The notes below the pieces were generated by a model. It worked only from the letters and a program-made list of their open reading frames with translations. It had not been told where the DNA came from and ran no database searches. DNA of 64,000 nt from Deltaproteobacteria bacterium (GTDB lineage: Bacteria > Desulfobacterota > GWC2-55-46). The stretch's first letter is position 1. Every line of letters begins with the position of its first letter. The position numbers were made by a program, and so were the translations under genes. Below, in pieces: positions 11,032 to 24,307 of this stretch. Location: contig JACPGB010000014.1 of assembly GCA_016182655.1 (NCBI GenBank), positions 1-64,000 on the forward strand, read 5' to 3'.

Positions 11032-11141
11032 TTCTTATCCAGAGTGGCTGAGGGACTGGCCCGTTGAAGCCACAGCAACCGATACTTCGCGTATGTCAGG
11101 TGCTAAATCCAGCAAGGCGGGAAAGCCTTGGAAGATAAGAA
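11032..11141 (+). ncRNA. SAM-I (S-box) riboswitch
   Basis: The P1 stem pairs TTCTTATC (11032-11039) with GATAAGAA (11134-11141). Inside are the family hallmarks AGAGTGGCTGAGGGACTGGC, then GAAGCC-CAGCAACC, a P3 hairpin, the GGTGCTAAATCC box and GCAAGG. SAM-I riboswitches bind S-adenosylmethionine and normally shut off methionine, cysteine or SAM genes. Here it precedes a threonine-synthase-like gene and the sulfur genes behind it. Confidence 0.92.
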
Positions 11142-11295: not shown

Positions 11296-12390
11296 ATGAG
11301 CTACATGAGGAGTCTGAAGTGCAGGGAGTGCGGGAAGGAATACCCGAAGGAGGCGTTGCACGTTTGCGAGCTCTGCTTCGGCCCGCTTGAGGTCAACTAC
11401 GAGTATGACAAGATAAAAGAAGTGCTCACAAGGCACGCGATAGAGAAGAGGGCGCCGAACATGTGGCGCTATAAGGAGCTCCTTCCGCTCGACGGCGAGC
11501 CGTCGGTCGGCGCCCAGGTCGGGTTCACGCCGCTCATCCGGGCCAAGAACCTCGGAAGAGCGCTCGGCGTAAAAGAGCTCTACATAAAGAACGACGCCGT
11601 CAACTTCCCGACCTTGTCGTTCAAGGACAGGGTCGTCTCGGTCGCGATATCGAGGGCGAGGGAGCTGGGTTTTCAGATAATCGCCTGCGCCTCGACCGGC
11701 AACCTCGCCAATTCGGTCGCCGCGAACGCCGCGGCCTGCGGCATGGAGAGCTACGTCTTCATACCTTACGACCTCGAACAGTCGAAGATACTCGGGACCC
11801 TCATCTTCGGCGCGACGGTCGTCGGCATAAAAGGGACATACGATGAAGTGAACAGGCTTTGCAGCGAGATAGCCGGAAAGTACGGCTGGGCCTTCGTGAA
11901 CATCAACATCCGCCCCTACTACGCCGAGGGCTCCAAGACCTTCGGGTACGAGATAGCCGAACAGCTCGGCTGGAAGCTCCCGAAGCACATCATAGTGCCG
12001 ATGGCAGGGGGCTCCCTCATAACCAAGATATCGAAGGCCTTCAAGGAGTTCCAGAAGCTCGGGTTCGTGAAGCAGACCGATACGCACATCTACGGCGCGC
12101 AGGCGACCGGATGCTGTCCCATCATAAACGCCGTAAAGGAAGGCAGCGAGCTAATAAGGCCCGTAAAGCCCAACACCATCGCGAAATCGCTCGCCATCGG
12201 TAACCCCGCCGACGGCTACTACTCCGCGAAGGTCATAAAGGAGAGCGGAGGCTGGGGCGAGAGCGTAACCGACGAGGAGATAATCGCCGCGATGAAGCTC
12301 CTCGCCGAGACCGAGGGCATATTCGCCGAGACCGCCGGAGGCGTCACGCTCGGCGTAACGAAAAAGCTCATCGAGCAGGGGGCAAGCTGA
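11296..12390 (+). CDS. thrC: Threonine-synthase-like PLP enzyme, C-terminus damaged
   Basis: A 364-residue fold-type II PLP protein that would convert O-phosphohomoserine to threonine. It has an N-terminal zinc ribbon (CREC, CELC), the PLP lysine in LSFKDR (K110), STGNLANS, and AGGS phosphate-loop motifs. The C-terminus is abnormal: the frame stops soon after KKLIEQG, while the +1 frame continues (12381-12476) with a tail containing INSRLSEFDELV that looks like the end of a ThrC. The usual TGNGLKT segment, expected between them, is absent. Good ribosome site AGGGAGGG before the ATG. It lies behind a SAM riboswitch, an unusual place for thrC, so the product could serve homocysteine synthesis instead; equally it may be decaying or misassembled. 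Confidence 0.8.
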   Translation: MSYMRSLKCRECGKEYPKEALHVCELCFGPLEVNYEYDKIKEVLTRHAIEKRAPNMWRYKELLPLDGEPSVGAQVGFTPLIRAKNLGRALGVKELYIKNDAVNFPTLSFKDRVVSVAISRARELGFQIIACASTGNLANSVAANAAACGMESYVFIPYDLEQSKILGTLIFGATVVGIKGTYDEVNRLCSEIAGKYGWAFVNINIRPYYAEGSKTFGYEIAEQLGWKLPKHIIVPMAGGSLITKISKAFKEFQKLGFVKQTDTHIYGAQATGCCPIINAVKEGSELIRPVKPNTIAKSLAIGNPADGYYSAKVIKESGGWGESVTDEEIIAAMKLLAETEGIFAETAGGVTLGVTKKLIEQGAS

Positions 12391-12692: not shown

Positions 12693-13658
12693 ATGACGGA
12701 CCACTTTATAGAGGACAAGACCACAAAGGTAAACGTAAACCTTGATAATGTCGGAGAGAGGGTAGACTTCAACGACCTTAAGTCCGGCGGTTTCATAAAG
12801 CAGAGACAGAAGGACCTGTTTGCCGTAAGGCTCCGTTGCCCCGGCGGCAGGATGGACACGAAAAAGCTCGTCGAGATATCGAAGATAGCGGACAAGTACA
12901 GCAAGAAGGGGGTCGTTCACTTCTCCTTCCGCCAGTCGCTCGAGATACTCTATGTCGATTACAAGGAGTTCAGGAACATAGTCTCCGAGCTCGAAAAGAT
13001 CGGCCAGAAGGTGGCTTCCTGCGGCCCGAGGGTCAGGGTCCCAACCGCCTGCGGCGGGTGCGAGTACAACCCGAACGGCCTTACCGACACCCAGGGGATG
13101 GCCGCGATGGTCGACCAGAAGTTCTTCGGCACGCCCACGCCGCATAAGTTCAAGACCTCATTCTCAGGTTGCCCGATAGACTGCGCGAGGACCAAGGAAA
13201 TGGACTTCGGTTTTCAGGGCATCGTCGAGCCAGTATGGGAGGACCCGCTCTGCACCGGTTGCACCATCTGCTCGGAGGCCTGCAAGGAAGACGCGATAGT
13301 CTCGGATCCGGACACGGGCAAACCCATATTCGACCCGAAAAAGTGCATTTTCTGCGGCGACTGCATAAGGGCCTGCCCGACCGAGGCCTGGAAGCCGAAG
13401 CGCTACGGACACATCGTCAGGATCGGCGGCAAGCACGGCAGGCACCCGATGGAGGCGCTTGAGGTCTGCACGTTCCTGCCGGACGACAAGGTCGCCGAGG
13501 CGATAGAGAAGACAGTAGAGTGGTACAACGCCAACGGCAAGCGCGGGGAGAGGATCGGGAACGCCATAAAAAGGGTCGGCGTTCAGAAGTACCTCGACTT
13601 CATGGAGCCTGTATTCAAGCACGGCTCCCCGGTAAACTATCTGGCGCCGGGGGTCTGA
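12693..13658 (+). CDS. Siroheme sulfite/nitrite-reductase-like protein with ferredoxin domain (AsrC/COG2221-like)
   Basis: A 321-residue reductase. Residues about 35-100 form the ferredoxin-like half domain. PTACGGCEYNPNG and FSGCPIDCARTKEM are the Cys motifs that hold the siroheme-linked 4Fe-4S cluster. A two-cluster ferredoxin insert follows (CTGCTICSEACKEDA and CIFCGDCIRACPTEAW). The likely reaction is six-electron reduction of sulfite to sulfide in the cytoplasm. The single-subunit size resembles AsrC and small Dsr-like proteins. Neighbours (TusA, sulfur carrier, APS reductase) support sulfite over nitrite. No strong ribosome site is visible; GAAGGGAG lies about 15 bases upstream. Confidence 0.8.
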   Translation: MTDHFIEDKTTKVNVNLDNVGERVDFNDLKSGGFIKQRQKDLFAVRLRCPGGRMDTKKLVEISKIADKYSKKGVVHFSFRQSLEILYVDYKEFRNIVSELEKIGQKVASCGPRVRVPTACGGCEYNPNGLTDTQGMAAMVDQKFFGTPTPHKFKTSFSGCPIDCARTKEMDFGFQGIVEPVWEDPLCTGCTICSEACKEDAIVSDPDTGKPIFDPKKCIFCGDCIRACPTEAWKPKRYGHIVRIGGKHGRHPMEALEVCTFLPDDKVAEAIEKTVEWYNANGKRGERIGNAIKRVGVQKYLDFMEPVFKHGSPVNYLAPGV

Positions 13659-13671
13659 GGGCCTTTTGTTG

Positions 13672-13757
13672 TCATTGCGAGGGGCTTTATCCGAAGCAAT
13701 CCCAAGTCGATGATTTATTAAAAGATGAGATTGCTTCGCTTCACTCGCAATGACAGG
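13672..13757. repeat. Palindromic repeat TCATTGCGAG...CTCGCAATGACA, family C
   Basis: The two outer arms TCATTGCGAG and CTCGCAATGA enclose a second inverted pair (GAAGCAATC / GATTGCTTC). A related copy is at 24204-24292. This is a widespread extragenic repeat type; no coding content. Confidence 0.75.
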
Positions 13758-13820: not shown

Positions 13821-14057
13821 ATGTCAGATATAAAATCCAACGCACAACTCGACCTCCGGGGCGTCATGTGCCCCATCAACTTCGTAAAGACCAAGCTCAA
13901 GCTTGAAACGCTTGAAGCCGGAGAGGTATTGGAGCTCGTGCTCGATTCCGGTGAGCCCATCCAGAACGTGCCCAAGTCGATAAAAGAAGAGGGGCACAAG
14001 ATCCTGGAAGTCAAAAAGGAAGGCGAGTACTTCAGGCTGAAGATCCAGAAAGGCTGA
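13821..14057 (+). CDS. tusA: TusA-family sulfurtransferase
   Basis: A 78-residue TusA/SirA-like protein. The family signature is RGVMCPINFVKTKL, with the persulfide-carrying Cys at C17 in CPxx. These proteins relay sulfane sulfur as a persulfide between donors and acceptors. Its position between the sulfite-reductase-like gene and the MoaD-like carrier suggests that it delivers reduced sulfur to the carrier. The start ATG follows AAAGGAGCC. Probably co-transcribed with the next two genes. Confidence 0.87.
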   Translation: MSDIKSNAQLDLRGVMCPINFVKTKLKLETLEAGEVLELVLDSGEPIQNVPKSIKEEGHKILEVKKEGEYFRLKIQKG

Positions 14058-14100
14058 TTTTTCAAATACATACAAAAGGATTTTGAGGAGGATTGATAAG

Positions 14101-14382
14101 ATGGCGATAAAGGTAAGGATCCCCACCCCGTTAAGGAAGCTCACGAACGGCTCCGACGAGGTAGCGGCAGAGGGCAGGAACATCTCGGAGATAATAGAGA
14201 ACCTCGAGAAGAACTATCCGGGCCTTAAGGAGCGCATCTGCGAAGCCGACGGCAAGCTCCGCCGTTTCGTGAACATCTACCTGAATGACGAGGACATCAG
14301 GTTCAAGAAGAACCTCGAGACCGAGCTCAAGGAGAACGACGAGCTCTCGATCATACCCGCTATCGCCGGAGGCGCGTTTTGA
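14101..14382 (+). CDS. MoaD/ThiS-type sulfur-carrier protein ending Gly-Gly-Ala-Phe
   Basis: A 93-residue beta-grasp carrier. It matches MoaD/CysO/ThiS-like proteins (VRIPTPLRKLTNG, GLKERICEADGKLRRFVNIY, ELSIIPAIAGG). Active carriers must end in Gly-Gly so that the C-terminus can be adenylated and turned into a thiocarboxylate; this one ends GGAF, so two residues must be removed first. The JAMM peptidase encoded 1.5 kb downstream is the obvious candidate, as in QbsE/QbsD- and HcyS/HcyD-type systems. The start at 14101 follows GGAGG; the frame is open six codons further. The next gene overlaps its stop codon. Confidence 0.85.
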   Translation: MAIKVRIPTPLRKLTNGSDEVAAEGRNISEIIENLEKNYPGLKERICEADGKLRRFVNIYLNDEDIRFKKNLETELKENDELSIIPAIAGGAF

Positions 14383-14615
14383 AGAAGAGGATATATCTCA
14401 CATATCCGAAAGAGCAGGTCAAGGAGCCGCTTCTTTACCACGTCGGCAGGCTCTTCAAGGTCGTGACCAACATCCGTCAGGCCTCGATCTCCGATAAGAT
14501 AGGTCTTGTTGCCCTCGAGCTCGACGGCGAGCCGGAGGAGATAGACAAGGCTATCAAGTATTTCATAGACAACGGGGTCAAGGTCGAACCTATCGAGCTC
14601 GATATAATCGAGTAA
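14379..14615 (+). CDS. NIL-domain protein
   Basis: A 78-residue single NIL (ACT-like) domain: RIYLTYPKEQ, then VVTNIRQASI, then ALELDGEPEEIDKAIKYF and GVKVEPI. NIL domains bind methionine at the end of MetN, and NIL-ferredoxin proteins take part in an alternative homocysteine synthesis in methanogens. With the SAM riboswitch upstream this supports a link to methionine supply. It starts at a TTG overlapping the carrier stop (TTGA). The ribosome site GGAGG at 14368-14372 lies inside the codons for the carrier Gly-Gly, so translation of the two is coupled. Confidence 0.8.
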   Translation: MKKRIYLTYPKEQVKEPLLYHVGRLFKVVTNIRQASISDKIGLVALELDGEPEEIDKAIKYFIDNGVKVEPIELDIIE

Positions 14616-14847: not shown

Positions 14848-15807
14848 ATGAGAGGACATAAATTCCTGGACGCCGCAGAGCCGGATAATGCCTTCAAAGC
14901 CCCCGCAAAGGGCTCGGTATTGGACCTCGTCGGAAATACCCCCCTCGTAAGGATAAACAACATCACAAAGGACCTCCCCTCCGATGTCGAGATATACGCC
15001 AAACTCGAAGGGTACAACCCCGGCGGGTCGGTAAAGGACAGAGCGGCGCTCTCGATGATACTCGACGCCGAGAACAGCGGAAGGCTCACGAAGGACAAGA
15101 TAATACTCGATTCCACCTCGGGCAACACCGGCATAGCGTACGCCTGGATAGGCGCGGTCAAGGGCTACAGGGTGGAGCTCGTCGTGCCCGCTAACGTGAG
15201 CGATGAACGCAAGAAAATACTCCACGCCTTCGGCGCGCACGTCATATTCTCGAACCCGCTCGAAGGCTCGGACGGCGCGATAAGGCTCGCCTGGAAGCTC
15301 TATGTCGATTCACCCGACAAATACTGCAAGCTCGACCAGTACAACAACCCCTCGAACCCGCTCGCCCATTACAACGGGACCGCGGCGGAAATAATCGAGC
15401 AGACTGACGGACGCGTCACGCACTTCATCGCCTCCATCGGCACCGGCGGCACGATCATGGGCACAGGCAGGCGCCTTAAGGAGTACAGGGAGGAGATACA
15501 GGTCATAGCTGTAGAGCCCGAGACCGCGTTCCACGGCCTCGAAGGCTTGAAGCACATGGCTTCATCCATAGTCCCGGGCATCTATCATGAAGAGGAGCTC
15601 GACTACAAGGTCCCGGCCCCTACTGAAGAGTCGTACAACATCGCGAAGAGGCTCGCGAGGGAAGAGGGGCTCCTTGTCGGCCAGTCCTCCGGGGCGGCCA
15701 TGTGGGGGGCGCTCGAAGTGGCGAAGAAGATAAAGAAGGGCGTAATCGTAGTCATCTTCCCTGACGGCGGGGACAAGTATTTGTCAACCAGGCTCTGGGA
15801 AGCATAG
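14848..15807 (+). CDS. Cysteine-synthase-family PLP enzyme (CysM/CysK-like)
   Basis: A 319-residue fold-type II enzyme of the cysteine synthase / cystathionine beta-synthase family. It has GNTPLVRINN, the PLP lysine in PGGSVKDRAA (K63), the substrate loop TSGNTG, and the phosphate loop GTGGTIMGTG; the C-terminus ends GGDKYLSTRLWEA. The family adds sulfide, or protein thiocarboxylate in CysO-dependent members, to O-acetylserine or O-phosphoserine. An N-terminal extension of about 20 residues precedes the core. Its place beside a JAMM peptidase, E1-like enzyme and GGAF carrier argues for a carrier-dependent synthase. GAGAGA precedes the ATG; it has its own promoter. Confidence 0.87.
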   Translation: MRGHKFLDAAEPDNAFKAPAKGSVLDLVGNTPLVRINNITKDLPSDVEIYAKLEGYNPGGSVKDRAALSMILDAENSGRLTKDKIILDSTSGNTGIAYAWIGAVKGYRVELVVPANVSDERKKILHAFGAHVIFSNPLEGSDGAIRLAWKLYVDSPDKYCKLDQYNNPSNPLAHYNGTAAEIIEQTDGRVTHFIASIGTGGTIMGTGRRLKEYREEIQVIAVEPETAFHGLEGLKHMASSIVPGIYHEEELDYKVPAPTEESYNIAKRLAREEGLLVGQSSGAAMWGALEVAKKIKKGVIVVIFPDGGDKYLSTRLWEA

Positions 15808-15843: not shown

Positions 15844-15868
15844 TTAACTAAACGCAAAAGGATTGAAT

Positions 15869-16327
15869 ATGGCGCTTTTCGGACTCGACAAGGTTCTCGG
15901 CAAACCCGCAATAAAGATATCGCAGGCCATATACGACCAGATAGTACAGCACGCGAAGGACTCGTACCCGAACGAGTGTTGCGGCATACTCATAGGCGCG
16001 ACTATGCGGGTCCGGTGCGTCCTTTACATACACCCGACCGTGAACACTAACAAGGAGAGGTCGCAGGACCGTTACATCATCGACCCCCGCGAGATATTCC
16101 TCATGGACAAGGAGGCGAAGGCGCAGGGCGCGGAGATAGTCGGCTTCTACCATTCGCACCCCGACCATCCTGACAAGCCCTCGGCGACCGACAGGGAGTG
16201 GGGGCAGGCCGGGTACTCCTACATGATAGTCTCCGTGAACGGCGGCAAGGACGTATCCGTAAAGTCGTGGATATTCCACGACGAGAACGAGCCCTTCAAG
16301 GAAGAGAAGATAAAGTTAAGCGAGTAG
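15869..16327 (+). CDS. JAMM/MPN+ metallopeptidase (Mec/HcyD/QbsD-like)
   Basis: A 152-residue zinc peptidase. All JAMM residues are present: E36 in NECCGILIG, H95-S-H97, S105 and D108 in the HxHx7SxxD motif (HSHPDHPDKPSATD). Bacterial relatives trim the C-terminus of sulfur carriers (QbsD, HcyD) or release cysteine from CysO-Cys (Mec). Since the carrier here ends GGAF, removal of Ala-Phe is the most likely task, and release of the aminoacyl product is also possible. AAAGGA precedes the ATG at 15869; a TTG two codons upstream is less likely. A terminator follows. Confidence 0.88.
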   Translation: MALFGLDKVLGKPAIKISQAIYDQIVQHAKDSYPNECCGILIGATMRVRCVLYIHPTVNTNKERSQDRYIIDPREIFLMDKEAKAQGAEIVGFYHSHPDHPDKPSATDREWGQAGYSYMIVSVNGGKDVSVKSWIFHDENEPFKEEKIKLSE

Positions 16328-16467: not shown

Positions 16468-16698
16468 CCCCCTCCCCCTTGATGGGGAGGGGGTGGGGAT
16501 GAAGCGTGCCGGACAGGCAAGTCCGTAATTAATGACAGATGATTCGATTACCTCGGCGGCTCCATCCGACTTTGGCCGCGCGCCGAGCGCCTCACTCCCC
16601 TCCCGTCGAGGGAGGGGAAGTATTAGAAGATACCCCGCTGTCTTCCGCGGGGTAGTTCATTTCAATATCGTTCAGAGAATCGCGCGAGGAGATGTCGT
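16468..16698. repeat. Repeat-filled gap: family B hairpins and a family D copy
   Basis: Contains a CCTCCCC hairpin (16468-16500), a family D element (about 16508-16595: GCCGGACAGGCAA at the left, TTGGCCGCGCGCCGAGC at the right), a second CCTCCC hairpin (about 16592-16618) and a small TACCCCGC/GCGGGGTA hairpin (16631-16654). I see no gene. A promoter for the E1-like gene may lie near its end but is not clear. Confidence 0.6.
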
Positions 16699-17526
16699 AT
16701 GGACTTTACCGAAGAGCAGATAGAAAGATATTCAAGGCACATAATACTCCCGGAGGTCGGCGGCAAGGGGCAGGCGAAGCTCTTGAAGAGCAGGGTCTTT
16801 GTGCTCGGCGCCGGAGGGCTCGGCTCTCCGTCTTTGCTTTATCTTGCCGCGGCGGGTGTCGGCACCATAGGGATCGCCGACGGCGACTGCGTGGACTTAA
16901 GCAATCTCCAGAGGCAGATCATACACAATACCGAAAGGATCGGGAAGCCCAAGGTCTTATCGGCCAAGGAGTCGATAAACGCCATCAACCCGGATGTGAA
17001 CGTCAACGCCCACCACGGGAGACTCACCGTGGAGAACATCAGGGAGATAATCCGCGACTACGATGTCGTGCTCGACGGCAGCGACAACTTCCCGACGCGG
17101 TTCCTGATGAACGACGCCGCGTTCTTCGAGCAAAAGACGCTGGTGTCCGGCTCCATGTTCAGGTTCGACGGCCAGGTCGCGGTATTCAAGCCCTCCAAGG
17201 GGTTCCCCTGCTACAGGTGCCTGTACCCCGAGCCGCCGCCGAAGGGGCTTGTCCCGAGCTGTCAGGAAGCAGGCGTCCTCGGCGCGCTCGCCGGAGTCAT
17301 AGGCGTGTTGCAGGCCGTCGAGACCGTTAAGGAGATACTCGGCATAGGGGACTCCCTCGCCGGGCACCTATTGATATTCGACGCGCTCAAGATGACATTC
17401 AGGAAGGTGAAGGTCATGAAGGACCCCGAGTGCGCGCTCTGCGGCGAGAACGCGACTATAAAGGAGCTCGTCCAGTACGAGGAGCAGGCCTGCGAGTTCA
17501 GGGCGCCTTCGGCGTGCGAGCGTTGA
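16699..17526 (+). CDS. E1-like adenylyltransferase (MoeB/ThiF/HcyF type)
   Basis: A 275-residue member of the ThiF/MoeB superfamily, which adenylates the C-terminal glycine of a ubiquitin-like sulfur carrier. Visible motifs are the nucleotide loop GAGGLGSP (from G37), the Asn/Arg motif NLQRQIIH, DGSDNFPTR, the catalytic-type Cys in PSCQEAGVLG (C188), and zinc CxxC pairs CYRC and CALC. No rhodanese domain is fused, so sulfur must come from another protein such as TusA, or from sulfide. GAGGAGATG is close to the ATG. The natural partner is the GGAF carrier after trimming. Confidence 0.9.
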   Translation: MDFTEEQIERYSRHIILPEVGGKGQAKLLKSRVFVLGAGGLGSPSLLYLAAAGVGTIGIADGDCVDLSNLQRQIIHNTERIGKPKVLSAKESINAINPDVNVNAHHGRLTVENIREIIRDYDVVLDGSDNFPTRFLMNDAAFFEQKTLVSGSMFRFDGQVAVFKPSKGFPCYRCLYPEPPPKGLVPSCQEAGVLGALAGVIGVLQAVETVKEILGIGDSLAGHLLIFDALKMTFRKVKVMKDPECALCGENATIKELVQYEEQACEFRAPSACER

Positions 17527-17557: not shown

Positions 17558-17738
17558 GCGCCCCCCTCTAACTTCCCCTCCCTTGACGGGAGGGGACAGA
17601 GGGGAGGGTGAACTTCGGCCAGGGCCAAAGTAGGTACGGAGTCTCCGGTTAAATCGATTCTCCTGCCGTTCGATATCGAATTGCCCGCCCGGCACGTTTC
17701 ACCCCCACCCCGCCTCCCCCGTCAAGGGGGAGGGGTTT
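17558..17738. repeat. Repeat-filled gap: two family B hairpins around an inverted family D copy
   Basis: CCTCCC hairpins at 17558-17611 and 17699-17738 flank a family D element in the opposite orientation (17615-17695). No coding content seen. Confidence 0.6.
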
Positions 17739-17767: not shown

Positions 17768-18964
17768 ATGAAAAAAAAGACCTACCTCCATAACCCGGCT
17801 ACCCTTAAGATAGACCTCATGCTCCGGGGCACGCGCATCGACGATCCCGTTGTGAAGGCCTGGGCGTGCGGCTCCGCGGGTGTCGACATAATGCTCCCGG
17901 AAAAGACGCTCGTGAACATCCCATGCAGGGAGGAGTTCACAAGGAACTCCCCTTACCTCATAAAAAAGAAGGGGAGCGGGTATCTTATAACCGACGGCGC
18001 GTCCGATGTAGAGGTCTCGCTCGTTGAGAAGCCTTCGTTCTACAACAGGCGCACTACGACCGGCGTCCCGTTTTCGAACATAGCGTCAGTCCACGGCAGT
18101 TATACGGTCATCACGCCTTCGCCCAGGTGCGACTTCTTCAACAGGAGTGTCGAGTGCAAGTACTGCGCCGGGAACTTCGACGTCACGGGCCGTGAAGGTG
18201 TGGTCTATTCGGTCGAGGAGGTCCTCGAGGCGGTCGAGGCTGTGTTGAAGGAAAAGGCCTCGGGGATAATATACTTTTCCATCGGCTTCAGCGATAACGA
18301 CGACGGCGGCCTCGGGTTCCTCAAACCCTATATCCTCGCGGTAAAGAAGAGCTTCAACTGCCTTGTGGCGGTAGAGGCCCTGCCGCCGAAGAAGAACCAC
18401 TGGATAGACGAGACATACGCGCTCGGGGCGGATTCCATCCTCTACAACCTCGAGATATTCGACAGGGAGCTCTTCGAGATAATATGCCCGGGGAGAGCCA
18501 CCCTCATCGGTCAGAAGAGGTATTTCGAGGCGCTCGAGCACGCGGCAAAGGTATTCCCGAACGGGACGGTCGCGTCCCACCTGATCGTCGGGCTGGAACC
18601 CCCGGGGTCGACCTGCATGGGCGTGGATTATCTCTCTGGCATCGGGGTCGTGCCGATACTGCCCATATACAGGCCGTCGGCGAACAGGGCTCTCCGGATA
18701 GAGCCGCTCGATACGGAGATAATACTCCCGGTCTACAAGCACCTGTATAAGTCGATAAAGAAGAACAAGATAAATGTAAACTGGGTCCGGGACATAAGCA
18801 TGGTAACGACCCCCGTGGAGCTTAAATCCATCGTGAGCGGCGAAAAACAGAAGTCGATAGTCGACGGGTTCTACAACTCCAGGCTCGGGAAGAAGACAGC
18901 CTGGGGGCTCGCAACGCTCCGGAGGAAGTTAAGGGTCATAGACAGGGATGACGATTCTGAGTAG
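17768..18964 (+). CDS. Radical SAM-like protein with unusual CX8CX2C motif
   Basis: A 398-residue protein of unknown function in the sulfur island. The presumed 4Fe-4S site is C121, C130, C133 (CDFFNRSVECKYC), spacing CX8CX2C rather than the usual CX3CX2C. Around it are radical SAM-like features: a following YCAGNF, the strand GIIYFSIGFSDND, and HLIVGLEPPG near the typical barrel glycine motif. Residues 1-110 form a separate N-terminal part not recognised. The gene lies between the E1-like gene and the anion transporter in the same direction, so a role in sulfur metabolism is likely but the substrate is unknown. It could instead use a non-radical Fe-S centre. Confidence 0.65.
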   Translation: MKKKTYLHNPATLKIDLMLRGTRIDDPVVKAWACGSAGVDIMLPEKTLVNIPCREEFTRNSPYLIKKKGSGYLITDGASDVEVSLVEKPSFYNRRTTTGVPFSNIASVHGSYTVITPSPRCDFFNRSVECKYCAGNFDVTGREGVVYSVEEVLEAVEAVLKEKASGIIYFSIGFSDNDDGGLGFLKPYILAVKKSFNCLVAVEALPPKKNHWIDETYALGADSILYNLEIFDRELFEIICPGRATLIGQKRYFEALEHAAKVFPNGTVASHLIVGLEPPGSTCMGVDYLSGIGVVPILPIYRPSANRALRIEPLDTEIILPVYKHLYKSIKKNKINVNWVRDISMVTTPVELKSIVSGEKQKSIVDGFYNSRLGKKTAWGLATLRRKLRVIDRDDDSE

Positions 18965-18999: not shown

Positions 19000-20433
19000 G
19001 TGTCGATTGAGATAGACACAAGGCCCATCTGGGTGATACTCCTCCTGAAGGCCTTGAGGCCCGCCTTTTATCTGGCGGTCGTCCTTATCTTCTGGGGACT
19101 CATCGCGATGCCCACGCCCGAGGGGCTCTCGATCGAGGGGCAGAGGGCGATAGCGATATTCGCGGTCTGCCTCATCCTCTGGGTCTCTAATATCGTGCCG
19201 CTCGCGATAACGAGCATCTTTGCCATCGTGCTCGTGCCGGTACTCGGGGTGTTGCCAAAGAAAGAGACTTACGCGCTTTTCGGAAACGAGGCGGTCTTTT
19301 TCATACTCGGCGCGTTCATACTCGCCGGGGCCGTCATGCATTCGGGGATATCCAACCGTTTGGCGCTCAACATAATGAAGAGATTCGGCGGGTCTCCGAG
19401 GACGCTCCTCATATCCGTTTTCCTCCTCTCCGCCTTTCTATCGTTTTTCATGTCCGAGCACGCGGTCGCGGCCATGCTCTTCCCGATAGTGCTCGAGATA
19501 GCAAAGGGGCTCGGGTTGAAGCCCGGGAAATCCAACTACGGCAAGCTCCTCTTCTTCGCCCTTGCGTGGGGCTGCGTCATAGGAGGGGTCGCGACCTTCC
19601 TCGGAGGCGCGAGGGTCCCTCTCGCAGTCGGGATGCTTAAGGAGACGACGGGCGACACGATCGGGTTCCTTGATTATTCGGTCGCCGTCTTTCCGCTCGT
19701 GGTCATACTCCTTGCCGCCGGGTACCTGATACTGACGAGGTTCTTCCCGATAGACATAGAAGGAGTCGGGTCGGCGAGGGCGGTGCTCGAACGGAGGATC
19801 AAGGGGCTGGGGAAGCTATCGGTCATTGAGTACGCGACGGGCACGGTCCTCGTCTTCACCATCATCGGCTGGATAACGCTTGGAGAGGGCTTTGGGCTGG
19901 CAACGGTTGCGCTCACTTCGGTCGTCGTCCTCTTTGTCTTCAAGCTTGTGAAATGGAAGGACATAGAGGAGTACGTAAACTGGGGAATAATACTCATGTA
20001 CGGAGGCGCAATCGTCCTCGGCGCGGCGCTCGATAAGAGCGGGGCCGCGGCCTGGCTCGTCAAATCCTCGGTGGGCAACTGGGCGGGGTCTCCCTGGATG
20101 GCGTTCGCGCTCTTTTCGTTCCTCTCGATACTCCTTACGGCGGCGATGAGCAACGCGGCGGTAATAGCCGTGCTCCTGCCCGTGAGCCTGGGGCTCGCCT
20201 CAAAGCTCTCGATGGACCCGGCGGTCCTCACATACGCCATAGCAGTACCCGCCGGGCTCGACTTCATGTTCCCGATGGGGACCCCGGCGATAGCGATAGC
20301 GGCGTCGTCGAACTACATAAACGTAAAGGAGTCGGCCAAGGGCGGGTTTATCATGTTCATAACCGCATGGGTCGTCTTCAACCTCGTCGCGGCGTGGTGG
20401 TGGCCGCTAATAGGCATGGGGTACTCGCGATGA
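19000..20433 (+). CDS. SLC13/DASS sodium-coupled anion transporter, probable sulfate importer
   Basis: A 477-residue inner-membrane carrier with about eleven to twelve hydrophobic segments. It has the DASS pattern of two inverted halves: SEHAVAAMLFPIVLEIAKG in the first, AAMSNAAVIAVLLPV and PMGTPAIAIAASSNYINV in the second. Family members take up sulfate, thiosulfate or dicarboxylates with sodium. Because APS reductase, CysQ and Sat-CysC lie immediately downstream, sulfate is the best guess. Translation starts at GTG. Its stop overlaps the next gene (ATGA), so the two are translationally coupled. Confidence 0.82.
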   Translation: MSIEIDTRPIWVILLLKALRPAFYLAVVLIFWGLIAMPTPEGLSIEGQRAIAIFAVCLILWVSNIVPLAITSIFAIVLVPVLGVLPKKETYALFGNEAVFFILGAFILAGAVMHSGISNRLALNIMKRFGGSPRTLLISVFLLSAFLSFFMSEHAVAAMLFPIVLEIAKGLGLKPGKSNYGKLLFFALAWGCVIGGVATFLGGARVPLAVGMLKETTGDTIGFLDYSVAVFPLVVILLAAGYLILTRFFPIDIEGVGSARAVLERRIKGLGKLSVIEYATGTVLVFTIIGWITLGEGFGLATVALTSVVVLFVFKLVKWKDIEEYVNWGIILMYGGAIVLGAALDKSGAAAWLVKSSVGNWAGSPWMAFALFSFLSILLTAAMSNAAVIAVLLPVSLGLASKLSMDPAVLTYAIAVPAGLDFMFPMGTPAIAIAASSNYINVKESAKGGFIMFITAWVVFNLVAAWWWPLIGMGYSR

Positions 20434-20897
20434 AAAAGATGCTGATAGTGCTGTCGACCTCGGGGACCTCGGAGGAGGCTATAGACTACGCGGTAAAGAG
20501 GGCGAAGAAGGAAGGGAGCGGGCTTGTCGCGCTCTATCTCCTCGAGACCGGGCTCGCCAACGAGGTCTTTGACAAGTTCTCGGATATAGGCTTTATCGGG
20601 GACAAGCCCTCGACGCAGTTGTCCGAGTCCATCATGAAAGAATACCGCCAGAGGGGCTACGAAGAGCTCGGCAAGGTGCAGATAAAGGCGATGGAAGAGG
20701 GGGTCGAATTCGAGCCCCTGGTGGAGCAGGGCGACTTCATACAGAAAGTCCTCGCCACAATAAAGACCATGGACGTCTCCGTGGCCGTGCTTGTAAAGAG
20801 GCGCAAACGGAGCTTCGTTAAATACTTCTCAAGGTCCATGGCCGACGAGGTCAAGGAAAAGGCCCGGTGCGAGGTCGTGCTTTTCGAGGAGGGTTAG
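20430..20897 (+). CDS. Universal stress protein (UspA family)
   Basis: A 155-residue cytoplasmic protein. It opens with MLIVLSTSGTSEEAIDYAVKRA, the first strand and helix of the UspA fold, and ends with CEVVLFEEG, the last strand. The ATP-binding GxxGxxG loop is replaced by KRRKRSFVKYFSRS, so it may not bind nucleotide in the usual way. Its ATG overlaps the transporter stop codon, a common pairing of Usp proteins with carriers, suggesting that it regulates the transporter. The APS reductase gene begins directly after its stop. Confidence 0.78.
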   Translation: MKKMLIVLSTSGTSEEAIDYAVKRAKKEGSGLVALYLLETGLANEVFDKFSDIGFIGDKPSTQLSESIMKEYRQRGYEELGKVQIKAMEEGVEFEPLVEQGDFIQKVLATIKTMDVSVAVLVKRRKRSFVKYFSRSMADEVKEKARCEVVLFEEG

Positions 20898-21590
20898 ATG
20901 GATAGGAATTGGACTGAAGAGGAATTGAAAGAGGTAAACGCGTCGCTCGAAGGCAAGGGCCCGGGGGCCGCGATAAGATGGGTCGTCGAGAATTTCAAGC
21001 GTGACGAGTTCGCGCTCGCGTGCAGTTTCGCGGAGCTTACGCTTTTAGACCTCGTCGTTAAGATCAAGCCCGACGCGCGGATATTCTTTCTCGACACGGG
21101 GCACCTCTTCAAGGAGACGCTCGACGTCGTAAAGAGGGCGGAAGCCAAGTACGGGATAAAGGTCGAGAGGCACACCGCCTGCGTCACAGCCAAGGAGATG
21201 GAAGAAAAGTACGGCCCGGAGCTCTGGAAGACAAATCCGGACAAGTGTTGCGAGATATTGAAGGTCGAGCCCCTTAAAAAAGCCCTTTCCGGCCTCAAGT
21301 GCTGGATGACGGGCCTCCGGCGGACAGAGGCCTCGACAAGGGCCGGTGCGCCGGTCGTTATGTGGGACAAAAAGTTCAACCTTGTTAAGGTCAACCCCAT
21401 AGTCGATTGGACCGAGAAACAGGTATGGGACTACATCGCCGCGAACGACGTCCCGTACAATAAGCTCCTCGACGAGGGCTACCCATCTATCGGGTGCGAG
21501 CCTTGCACGTCCCCTGTAGCACCGGGCGAGGACCCGAGGAGCGGCAGGTGGGCGGGCAAGAAGAAGACCGAATGCGGGCTCCATAAGTAG
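20898..21590 (+). CDS. cysH: APS reductase (4Fe-4S, thioredoxin-dependent)
   Basis: A 230-residue assimilatory reductase turning adenylylsulfate into sulfite. It has the nucleotide loop region CSFAEL, LDTGHLFKET, and the iron-sulfur cysteines typical of APS-type enzymes: C117-C118 and C200-x2-C203. The catalytic Cys lies in ECGLH (C226) on the C-terminal tail. The Cys-Cys/CxxC set marks the APS-using rather than PAPS-only subtype. It follows the Usp gene with no gap and precedes cysQ by three bases, so the unit is a tight operon. Confidence 0.93.
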   Translation: MDRNWTEEELKEVNASLEGKGPGAAIRWVVENFKRDEFALACSFAELTLLDLVVKIKPDARIFFLDTGHLFKETLDVVKRAEAKYGIKVERHTACVTAKEMEEKYGPELWKTNPDKCCEILKVEPLKKALSGLKCWMTGLRRTEASTRAGAPVVMWDKKFNLVKVNPIVDWTEKQVWDYIAANDVPYNKLLDEGYPSIGCEPCTSPVAPGEDPRSGRWAGKKKTECGLHK

Positions 21591-21593
21591 CGC

Positions 21594-22388
21594 ATGGGAC
21601 TTGTCACGCTTGCAAAAGAGGCGCTCTCCGTCGCGCTTAAGGCCGGTGAGGAGATATTAAAGGTCTACGAGGGGGGCGACCTCAAGACGAGTTACAAGGA
21701 AGACAGCTCTCCCCTGACCGCCGCCGACGAGGCTTCGGACAGGGTCATATCAGAGGGGCTTAAAAGGATCGCGCCTGATATCCCGGTCCTTTCGGAAGAG
21801 ACGAAGGCCGAGCCGTATGTTGTGCGGAGAAATTGGAAGCGCCTCTGGATAATCGACCCGCTCGACGGCACAAAGGAGTTCATAAAAAGGAACGGCGAGT
21901 TCACGGTAAACATCGCGCTCGTCGAGGACAATAAGCCGGTTTTGGGTGTGGTCCACGCGCCCGCGCTGGGGGTTAGCTACTTTGGGGTAGTAGGCGAGGG
22001 GGCGTTCAGGATTGACAAGGACGGCGAGACCGTGATAAGGGTCTCGGACTACGGGCAGGGTCGGTTGAGGATAGTGGGGTCGAGGTCTCATGCCGGTAAA
22101 GAGCTTGAGGAGTTTGTGAAAAACACCGGGGACGCGGACTTCGTCTCCATGGGCAGTTCCCTGAAGTTCTGCCTCGTCGCCGAAGGCAAAGCGCATTTGT
22201 ACCCGAGGTTCGGCCCGACCATGGAGTGGGACACGGCCGCGGCGCACGCCGTTGTAAAGGCCGCTGGTGGAAGTGTAACGGACCTTGAGGGCAGGGAGCT
22301 CACTTACAATAAGGAAGACCTCTTGAACCCGTTTTTCATGGTCACGGGCGCGCCGTCGTTTCCGTGGCAGAGGTTTCTAAAAAAATAA
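21594..22388 (+). CDS. cysQ: 3'(2'),5'-bisphosphate nucleotidase
   Basis: A 264-residue member of the inositol monophosphatase superfamily. Metal-binding motifs are EET (about residue 68), IDPLDGTKEFI and, near the C-terminus, WDTAAAHAVVKAAGG. TKEF after DPLDG is characteristic of CysQ, which removes the 3' phosphate from PAP or PAPS and keeps the sulfate pathway from stalling. Its position between cysH and the sat-cysC fusion supports this. The start ATG is three bases after the cysH stop. Confidence 0.9.
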   Translation: MGLVTLAKEALSVALKAGEEILKVYEGGDLKTSYKEDSSPLTAADEASDRVISEGLKRIAPDIPVLSEETKAEPYVVRRNWKRLWIIDPLDGTKEFIKRNGEFTVNIALVEDNKPVLGVVHAPALGVSYFGVVGEGAFRIDKDGETVIRVSDYGQGRLRIVGSRSHAGKELEEFVKNTGDADFVSMGSSLKFCLVAEGKAHLYPRFGPTMEWDTAAAHAVVKAAGGSVTDLEGRELTYNKEDLLNPFFMVTGAPSFPWQRFLKK

Positions 22389-22454: not shown

Positions 22455-24167
22455 GTGTCAAACATCACCGCGCCGCATGGAGGAGTTCTAAAGGAGTTGA
22501 TCGTACCCGAAGCCGAGGCCGAACAGCTTAAAAAAGAGGCCCGCGACTTCGTATCCTGGGACTTGACCGAAAGACAGCTCTGGGACATAGAGATGCTCTT
22601 GAACGGCGGGTTCTCGCCGCTCGAAGGGTTCCTGGGCAAGGCCGACTATGATTCCGTCGTAAAGAAGATGAGGCTCGCTTCAGGCGTCGTCTGGACGATG
22701 CCCATAACGCTCGACGTGACCGAGGCGTTCGCGGAAAAGATAAGCGCCGGGAAGAATATCGCGCTCCGCGACCAGGAGGGCGTCCTCATCGCCGTCATGG
22801 CAATCTCCGACATCTGGAGGCCGGATAAGAAGGAAGAGGCGTTGAACGTCTTTAAGTCCGACGACACCGTCCACCCGGGCGTAAACTACCTCTTCAACAG
22901 GGCTCACCCCGTATACGTCGGCGGAAAGCTCAAAGGATTGGAGCTTCCGTCCCATTATGACTTCAAGTCCTTGAGGAACACGCCGAAGGATCTGCGCGAG
23001 AAGTTCAAGAAGCAGGGCTGGCACAAGGTCGTCGCCTTCCAGACGAGGAACCCCATGCACAGGGCCCATCAGGAGCTGACCTTCAGGGCCGCGCAGATGG
23101 TCGAATCCAACCTCCTCATCCACCCGGTCGTCGGCATGACGAAACCCGGCGACATCGACCACTATTCGAGGATCCGTTGCTACGAGCACCTCGTAAAGCA
23201 GTACCCCGAGCAGACGACGATGCTCTCGCTTCTTCCCCTTGCCATGAGGATGGGCGGGCCCAGAGAGGCCGTATGGCACTCGATAATAAGGAAGAACTAC
23301 GGTTGCACCCACTTCATCGTCGGCCGTAACCACGCCGACCCGGGCAAGAACTCCAAGGGCGAGGCCTTCTACGGGCCGTACGACGCGCAGGACCTTCTCG
23401 GGAGCTTACAAGCCGAGATAGGCATACAGATGGTCCCGTTCCAGGAGATGGTCTACGTGCAGGAGAGGGCGCAGTACTTCCCGGCCGACCAGATAGAAAA
23501 GGACATGACTGTGCTGAACATCTCGGGCACCGAGTTCAGGAGGCGTCTCATGCTCGGCCTCGACATCCCGGACTGGTTCTCGTATACCGAGGTCGTTAAC
23601 GAGCTCCGGAGGACCTACCCCCCGAGACACAAGCAGGGCTTCACTGTATTCTTTACGGGCCTATCGGGCTCCGGTAAATCGACGATAGCGAACGCCCTCA
23701 TGGTAAAGTTGATGGAGTCAGGCGGCAGGCCCGTTACGCTCCTCGATGGCGACCTCGTGAGGAAGAACCTTTCGAGCGAGCTCGGGTTTTCGAGAGAGCA
23801 CCGCGACTTGAACATCCAGAGGATAGGGTTCGTCGCCGGGCAGATAACGAAGAACGGCGGCGCGGCGATATGCGCGCCCATCGCCCCGTACGCGGCGACG
23901 CGTAAGGCCGTGAGGGAAGAGATATCGAAGTCCGGCGGCTTCATAGAGGTGCATGTGGCGACCCCGATAGAGGTCTGCGAGGAGCGCGACAGGAAGGGCC
24001 TTTACGCCAAGGCGCGCGCCGGCATCATAAAGGAGTTCACGGGCATCAGCGACCCCTACGAGGCACCGGAGAACGCGGAGCTCGTTATCGACACCCGCGA
24101 CTGCTCGCCTGACGAGGCGTCGCAGAGGATCATCTTGAAGCTTGAACAGATGGGGTTTATAAAGTAA
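22455..24167 (+). CDS. Bifunctional ATP sulfurylase / APS kinase (Sat-CysC fusion)
   Basis: A 570-residue fusion. Residues 1-390 are a homo-oligomeric Sat-type sulfurylase, with FQTRNPMHRAH (R198, H202, H205) and GRNHADPGKN. Residues about 393-570 are an APS kinase, with the P-loop GLSGSGKS (402-409, K408), DGDLVRKNL and the FTGISDPYE region. It activates sulfate to APS and then phosphorylates it to PAPS. Translation starts at GTG, with AAGGAGG nine bases upstream. The kinase is unexpected beside an APS-type reductase, unless PAPS is needed elsewhere; CysQ would recycle the by-product. It closes the sulfur island before a strong hairpin. Confidence 0.94.
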   Translation: MSNITAPHGGVLKELIVPEAEAEQLKKEARDFVSWDLTERQLWDIEMLLNGGFSPLEGFLGKADYDSVVKKMRLASGVVWTMPITLDVTEAFAEKISAGKNIALRDQEGVLIAVMAISDIWRPDKKEEALNVFKSDDTVHPGVNYLFNRAHPVYVGGKLKGLELPSHYDFKSLRNTPKDLREKFKKQGWHKVVAFQTRNPMHRAHQELTFRAAQMVESNLLIHPVVGMTKPGDIDHYSRIRCYEHLVKQYPEQTTMLSLLPLAMRMGGPREAVWHSIIRKNYGCTHFIVGRNHADPGKNSKGEAFYGPYDAQDLLGSLQAEIGIQMVPFQEMVYVQERAQYFPADQIEKDMTVLNISGTEFRRRLMLGLDIPDWFSYTEVVNELRRTYPPRHKQGFTVFFTGLSGSGKSTIANALMVKLMESGGRPVTLLDGDLVRKNLSSELGFSREHRDLNIQRIGFVAGQITKNGGAAICAPIAPYAATRKAVREEISKSGGFIEVHVATPIEVCEERDRKGLYAKARAGIIKEFTGISDPYEAPENAELVIDTRDCSPDEASQRIILKLEQMGFIK

Positions 24168-24203: not shown

Positions 24204-24292
24204 CAGTCATTGCGAGCCGTGGCGAAGCAATCTCATCTTTAAGGTTTCAATGACTCTTGAGATTGCTTCGTCGCAAGCTCCTCGCAATGACA
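24204..24292. repeat. Palindromic repeat TCATTGCGAG...CTCGCAATGACA, family C
   Basis: Second copy of the repeat at 13672, with inner arms AAGCAATCTC and GAGATTGCTTCG. It ends 15 bases before the next start codon. Confidence 0.75.
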
Positions 24293-24307
24293 AGATGATA
24301 TGAAATT

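Follow-up and report, generated by a model that had tools for sequence, protein, structure and literature searches.

A variant radical SAM protein as a possible dedicated partner of a DASS-type importer in a sulfate-to-cysteine gene island

The gene at positions 17768-18964 (forward strand) of the window, as we call the whole 64,000-nucleotide stretch of Desulfobacterota DNA analysed here, encodes a 398-residue variant radical SAM protein (rSAM) that lies directly upstream of a DASS/SLC13-type anion symporter (DASS) in a sulfate assimilation island. This adjacency is constant among relatives, and in another class of the same phylum the same slot is filled by a homologue without the cluster motif (X). 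The reading we favor, with a confidence that approaches an even call without reaching it, is that rSAM, whose scaffold is the radical SAM fold, is dedicated to DASS in an accessory or regulatory role, with a [4Fe-4S] cluster and SAM probably still bound in the lineage of the window.

The open reading frame is intact and single copy in its 2.9-Mb genome. Its product comprises a mostly beta N-terminal domain (residues 1 to about 110), a cluster loop (117-148), a TIM-like barrel, and C-terminal helices ending in RRKLRV. A first-pass annotation, made from the sequence alone, had proposed a radical SAM-like protein with cysteines at 121, 130, and 133, and all three stand exactly there, in the context RC121DFFNRSVEC130KYC133 (codons at 18128-18166, forward strand), as putative SAM-[4Fe-4S] ligands. 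Across 51 aligned homologues C121 and C130 never vary (51/51 each), C133 is kept in 50/51 and C240 in 49/51, and the cluster cysteines are conserved within the clade. Of 17 distant relatives, the 16 that cover the region all share the CX8CX2C spacing, true MSMEG_0568/NitD proteins among them. Because the motif is conserved this widely, it is real and under constraint rather than a chance arrangement. The spacing does depart, as the annotation had noted, from the canonical CX3CX2C, the form carried by LipA, BioB, and ThiH, but it is not peculiar to this protein; judging from the aligned sequences, it is the norm of the NF045502 and MSMEG_0568/NitD families. A scan of genome contigs with the single protein gave no match, and an alignment-based scan with the family gave 52 loci, in genomes that are mostly metagenome-assembled. 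The Nitrospinae member at L121:9472-10692 has a glutamine in place of the third cluster cysteine, in a single MAG where it may be an error, and retains the gene order SiR-CysH-rSAM-DASS.

Profile searches place rSAM above the cut-offs of both Pfam Radical_SAM (PF04055; residues 116-275, 31 bits, cut-off 29.5, E 3.5e-7) and NCBIfam NF045502 'variant_rSAM' (residues 58-309, 171.4 bits, cut-off 125). The MSMEG_0568 family model TIGR04043 scores 110.3 bits, below its cut-off of 303.7, with an alignment that begins at residue 16. Since the NF045502 and TIGR04043 alignments start at residues 58 and 16, the N-terminal stretch is largely a known part of the family. The earlier statement that the first 110 or so residues match nothing thus survives only in that no function is attached to them, and the idea that they are unique to rSAM was dropped.

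In a maximum-likelihood tree, a branch with 100/99 support separates 48 sulfur-island proteins from the rest. Ten NitD-type proteins adjoin them and other NF045502 members stand apart, although long branches leave the order among the outer groups unsure. Among named plasmid matches, the nearest are likewise MSMEG_0568 proteins, with 25-29% identity. NitD is part of the seven-gene Nit1C cluster, which is needed for cyanide assimilation, and a relationship to COG2516 biotin-synthase-related enzymes has been described for it (PMC1199592, PMC8567248). The papers found on NitD, NF045502, or MSMEG_0568 members assign them no reaction or function, and literature on CX8CX2C/CX9CX2C radical SAM enzymes, MSMEG_0568, and radical SAM pseudoenzymes yielded nothing on the family of rSAM. 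Among the loci compared, two (L036:5210-6883 and L040:9478-10989) encode a NitD-type radical SAM protein fused to an MSMEG_0567 GNAT acetyltransferase in one polypeptide, and a third (L046:5364-14024) shows the family in yet another setting, with a nitrogenase-component-1-like gene between two divergent radical SAM genes of NF045502 type.

The barrel that the annotation had suspected is present in the predicted fold. An AlphaFold2 model built from the 51-sequence alignment has a mean pLDDT of 83 and a pTM of 0.85, and is least certain in the cluster loop (124-126 and 134-141). Its top Foldseek matches in the PDB are mostly radical SAM barrels, namely lipoyl synthase (LipA, 4e-7), ThiH, biotin synthase (BioB), PylB, and NifB, and the rSAM model contains a partial or full TIM barrel of this type. 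Sequence searches of the PDB with rSAM, the family profile, and the X profile found no credible relative. Across the 51 homologues there are no auxiliary-cluster cysteines, C240 being the only conserved cysteine besides those of the CX8CX2C motif, so a LipA/BioB-type sulfur-insertion mechanism is unlikely. On this evidence rSAM is a genuine but unusual member of the radical SAM family, for which enzyme activity is predicted.

The island around rSAM runs from sulfate to cysteine, with all features on the forward strand. A SAM-I riboswitch (S box; 11032-11141; RF00162, 98.1 bits, E 1.7e-22) stands at its head, as it does in 11 of 16 relatives scanned, and is followed after 154 nt by a threonine-synthase-like PLP enzyme with an N-terminal zinc ribbon (11296-12390). 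Next come a siroheme/4Fe-4S sulfite reductase (SiR; 12693-13658), a small gene for a TusA/SirA-like sulfurtransferase (13821-14057), a MoaD/ThiS-like sulfur carrier of the SAMP1 family (14083-14382), a small stand-alone NIL domain protein (14379-14615), a CysM/CysK-type cysteine synthase (14848-15807), a JAB/desampylase-like metalloprotease of Mec+-like type (15863-16327), and an E1-like MoeB/ThiF adenylyltransferase without a rhodanese domain (16699-17526). The rSAM gene opens the second half, followed by DASS (19000-20433), a UspA-type universal stress protein that often follows DASS (Usp; 20367-20897), CysH (APS/PAPS reductase; 20898-21590), CysQ bisphosphate nucleotidase (21594-22388), and a bifunctional ATP sulfurylase/APS kinase (22455-24167). 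The placement of rSAM between an E1-like gene and a transporter of this type is therefore as first described; sulfate as the substrate of the transporter is the inferred part of that description.

The island is syntenic across several phyla, and the order from MoaD/CysM through rSAM-DASS is retained in relatives down to about 40% identity, so that the constant company of rSAM with SLC13 and sulfur genes holds. The most distant full-length member, at the Nitrospinae locus L121, lies in a SiR-CysH-rSAM-DASS arrangement with no MoaD or CysM detected upstream. A second ThrC homologue (39% identity) is encoded elsewhere in the genome, so the island copy may act not as ThrC but as a homocysteine synthase that depends on O-phosphohomoserine. 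GC-rich palindromic repeats lie on either side of the MoeB gene (16469-16621 and 17571-17735), one palindrome being a terminator-like stem immediately before the rSAM gene. Further out (13669-13706 and 24256-24293) is a dispersed repeat of the ATTGCGAGG...GCAATCTC type.

The importer belongs to a subfamily of its own. It matches TIGR00785 at 256.7 bits (cut-off 198.6), and a DASS search recovers members at 43% identity or more, cleanly apart from other DASS proteins at 32% or less. The two SNT substrate motifs of DASS dicarboxylate carriers are absent: the first is replaced by (S/P)EHAVAA, with E153-H154 strictly conserved where dicarboxylate carriers have N-T, and the second reads SNA/SNS or SHA/SHS wherever a homologue extends over it. 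The conserved EH is a possible sequence signature of a sulfate-type DASS subfamily. No SulP sulfate permease, the one other carrier type looked for, is encoded in the genome, which makes DASS the likely sulfate importer. DASS hits had been flagged as containing internal TGA/TAA codons; recoding was rejected, the stops found in the sample checked sitting at gene ends.

The gene directly upstream of DASS is rSAM or X at 123 of 123 distinct loci of this motif-bearing subfamily, a count that ignores the relatedness of the genomes and covers loci found by homology to DASS beside rSAM or X, so that a more distant partnerless DASS could be missed. The adjacency extends to Binatia, Myxococcales, and Nitrospinae records in which the other neighbours differ. 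In the sample of relatives, 58 of 60 genomes with rSAM also have DASS, and the two with rSAM only have their hits at or near contig edges. Six genomes have DASS only: two hold partial copies compatible with assembly gaps (G012 and G061), and the other four carry X. Among the seven genomes of the class without rSAM, G012 and G061 contain only this partial DASS, and G041 has no rSAM gene, close DASS, or JAB. The strictly conserved, altered substrate motif of DASS argues that rSAM or X and DASS form a specialised unit.

X was recognized at the four DASS-only loci (L142-L145), where the gene upstream of DASS encodes 239-270 residues with no Pfam match. The family, of about 260 residues (about 220-290), was read at 65 loci, 62 from the class of genome G123 and three more (L142-L144); X is directly upstream of DASS at all 65, and a C-x(2-14)-C-x2-C motif occurs in none. 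Of 277 genomes in the class of G123, 65 have DASS, 66 have X, 64 have both, and 210 have neither. In the one DASS-only genome DASS starts at the edge of a contig, and the two X-only genomes have a broken or fragmentary X; shared descent ignored, the hypergeometric log10 P for this co-occurrence is about -59. X is intact and strongly conserved in about 60 genomes. Frameshifted or split copies stand beside an intact DASS in G327 and G332.

The relationship of X to rSAM is clear from profile alignment (hhalign 99.7%, E 1.6e-26, 229 collinear columns from rSAM residue 146 to the C-terminus), and X is nearer to the sulfur-island clade (8.8e-30) than to NitD (8e-9), and the match is weakest to other NF045502 members (2e-5). 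Both the N-terminal domain and the entire cluster loop are missing from X. In what would be the barrel core and the C-terminal part it retains E154, K193, F196, Y217, G220, D222, F263-P264, P296, T348-P349, and RRxLRV. A C-terminal RRxLRV...S(F/L)(D/E)S(A/S)GL tail is common to X and several cluster-bearing members, the S(F/L)(D/E)S(A/S)GL part having been lost in the subgroup of the window protein. C240, R251, and E277 are conserved in the cluster-bearing clade; in X the first two are mostly lost and the third partly kept. Since the cluster is present in the NitD and NF045502 outgroups, it appears to be ancestral and to have been lost in X, on an inferred rooting. At the one X locus annotated in full, the genes Rrf2-CysK-SiR-X-DASS-CysH-CysD-CysN make up an assimilatory sulfate operon that is otherwise complete, leaving import as the main step for X to serve. 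That a protein without the cluster loop fills the slot argues that radical chemistry is dispensable at the DASS locus in this lineage, and hence for a role there that does not need it.

We hypothesize that a DASS-type importer feeds the assimilatory sulfate pathway and that rSAM, descended from a NF045502/NitD-type radical SAM enzyme, would be its dedicated partner. The lineage of the window would have kept the CX8CX2C site and the barrel, and the other class would have shed the cluster loop and the N-terminal domain while keeping the place and the barrel core. Because the importer was kept as a neighbor through loss of the catalytic center, the rSAM/X family most likely serves the importer. 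The job common to both forms could be docking on or gating the importer or, alternatively, passing on its substrate or a metabolite of the pathway, or sensing either; a physical interaction with DASS, and any direction given to the regulation, would be part of this hypothesis. With its CX8CX2C site and barrel retained, the window-lineage protein probably binds [4Fe-4S] and SAM, and this binding would be an extra of the cluster-bearing forms that may serve to sense SAM or sulfur status. An accessory or regulatory role is the most economical reading of a job shared at the DASS locus. A further-reaching version, which we offer tentatively and on the doubtful side, is that the radical SAM fold was recruited as an obligate partner of a sulfate-importing DASS in two forms at one locus, one that keeps [4Fe-4S]/SAM and may report SAM or sulfur status, and a pseudo-radical-SAM form without the cluster loop and N-terminal domain.

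Several observations count against a partner role. Near-invariance of the three cysteines in the cluster-bearing clade is what selection for catalysis would produce, and this strict conservation implies that a SAM/Fe-S function, whether sensing or real catalysis, is selected in the lineage of the window. X may have a different function, given that it has mostly lost C240 and R251 and only partly retains E277. The frameshifted or split X copies next to an intact DASS in G327 and G332 also weigh against it. Gene adjacency is not physical interaction, and we know of no established regulator class of Fe-S/SAM sensors on the radical SAM fold.

The first of these points also favors a catalytic scavenger, in which DASS would import an organic sulfur anion such as a sulfonate and rSAM would cleave its C-S bond, or otherwise free sulfite or sulfide, for SiR and the MoaD/CysM route. 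The predicted LipA/BioB/ThiH-like barrel, conservation of the cluster and of SAM-site residues, and a DASS substrate motif unlike that of dicarboxylate carriers fit this model, and Nit1C relatives serve nitrogen scavenging from cyanide (PMC8567248, PMC1199592). We nevertheless hold it to be unlikely, since DASS also occurs in operons with complete sulfate activation and reduction alongside X, which is incapable of radical SAM chemistry, and the lack of SulP (among carriers, the type looked for) points to sulfate as the imported anion. It is also conceivable, at much the same low level as the model taken up last, that the DASS adjacency is inherited operon structure around an ordinary orphan radical SAM enzyme, with X putting a decayed copy to some unrelated use. 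Operon order can persist through inheritance, and the papers found give NF045502/MSMEG_0568 members no function; yet the adjacency persists across phyla, at 30-91% identity and with differing remaining gene contents, and X is intact and strongly conserved in about 60 genomes.

The first-pass annotation had suggested sulfur transfer or cofactor synthesis, which received no direct support: auxiliary-cluster cysteines are absent, the most faithful partner is the importer rather than E1/MoaD, and a cluster-less homologue fills the slot in another class. In a ThiH-like model, rSAM would use radical chemistry to make an acceptor, or to modify a protein, that receives sulfur from a MoaD thiocarboxylate (MoaD-COSH), which MoeB/TusA would form and CysM consume. 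A known analogue exists in ThiH-ThiS-ThiF, the predicted fold has ThiH as one of its best structural matches, and most cluster-bearing loci have MoaD, MoeB, CysM, and JAB immediately before the gene. At L121 and the annotated cluster-less loci, the gene and DASS occur with no MoaD, JAB, or MoeB detected beside them, which demotes the MoaD/E1 system as the chief home of the rSAM gene, and to our knowledge CysO-CysM-Mec+ type pathways run without any radical SAM enzyme. We regard this model as improbable.

Nearly all work on radical SAM proteins regards them as catalysts, and here a barrel protein and an importer form a co-inherited pair both with and without the catalytic cluster. The pair is deep and intact, making a non-radical role of the family directly testable by genetics in cultivable relatives. 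The rSAM/X-DASS pair further points out the likely sulfate importer in a large group of uncultured bacteria, and it may give a handle on the unexplained NitD of cyanide assimilation.

Compared with known systems, the island most resembles sulfur-metabolism operons with ThiS/MoaD, JAB, E1 without rhodanese, and SirA (Iyer et al. 2006, row 4e; PMC1779556), in a paper that also describes CysO-CysM-Mec+ type operons, and the Wolinella protein-thiocarboxylate pathway. It shares with them MoaD, JAB, E1, and TusA/SirA, as well as CysH, ATP sulfurylase, sulfite reductase, and APS kinase. It differs in having rSAM and DASS (with Usp) instead of an ABC sulfate transporter, and in adding the threonine-synthase-like gene, the NIL protein, and a SAM riboswitch at its head; the rSAM-DASS pair brings two unexplained parts to known thiocarboxylate-type cysteine operons. 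Among protein families, rSAM resembles NF045502 in its above-cut-off score and in the CX8CX2C spacing of the tested members, and differs in its own clade, in a C-terminal RRxLRV extension missing from most other members, and in its linkage to DASS and sulfur genes. The BioB-LipA-ThiH group shares the barrel and provides the best PDB fold matches (E about 1e-6), whereas rSAM has CX8CX2C, lacks auxiliary cluster cysteines, and has no PDB sequence match. TIGR04043/NitD is the sister clade, with the same N-terminal domain, cluster spacing, and barrel; rSAM is set apart from it by a score under the cut-off, a separate clade (100/99 support), 25-29% identity, and a locus that carries, in place of the nitrilase, GNAT, and AIRS genes of the Nit1C context, sulfur genes and DASS.
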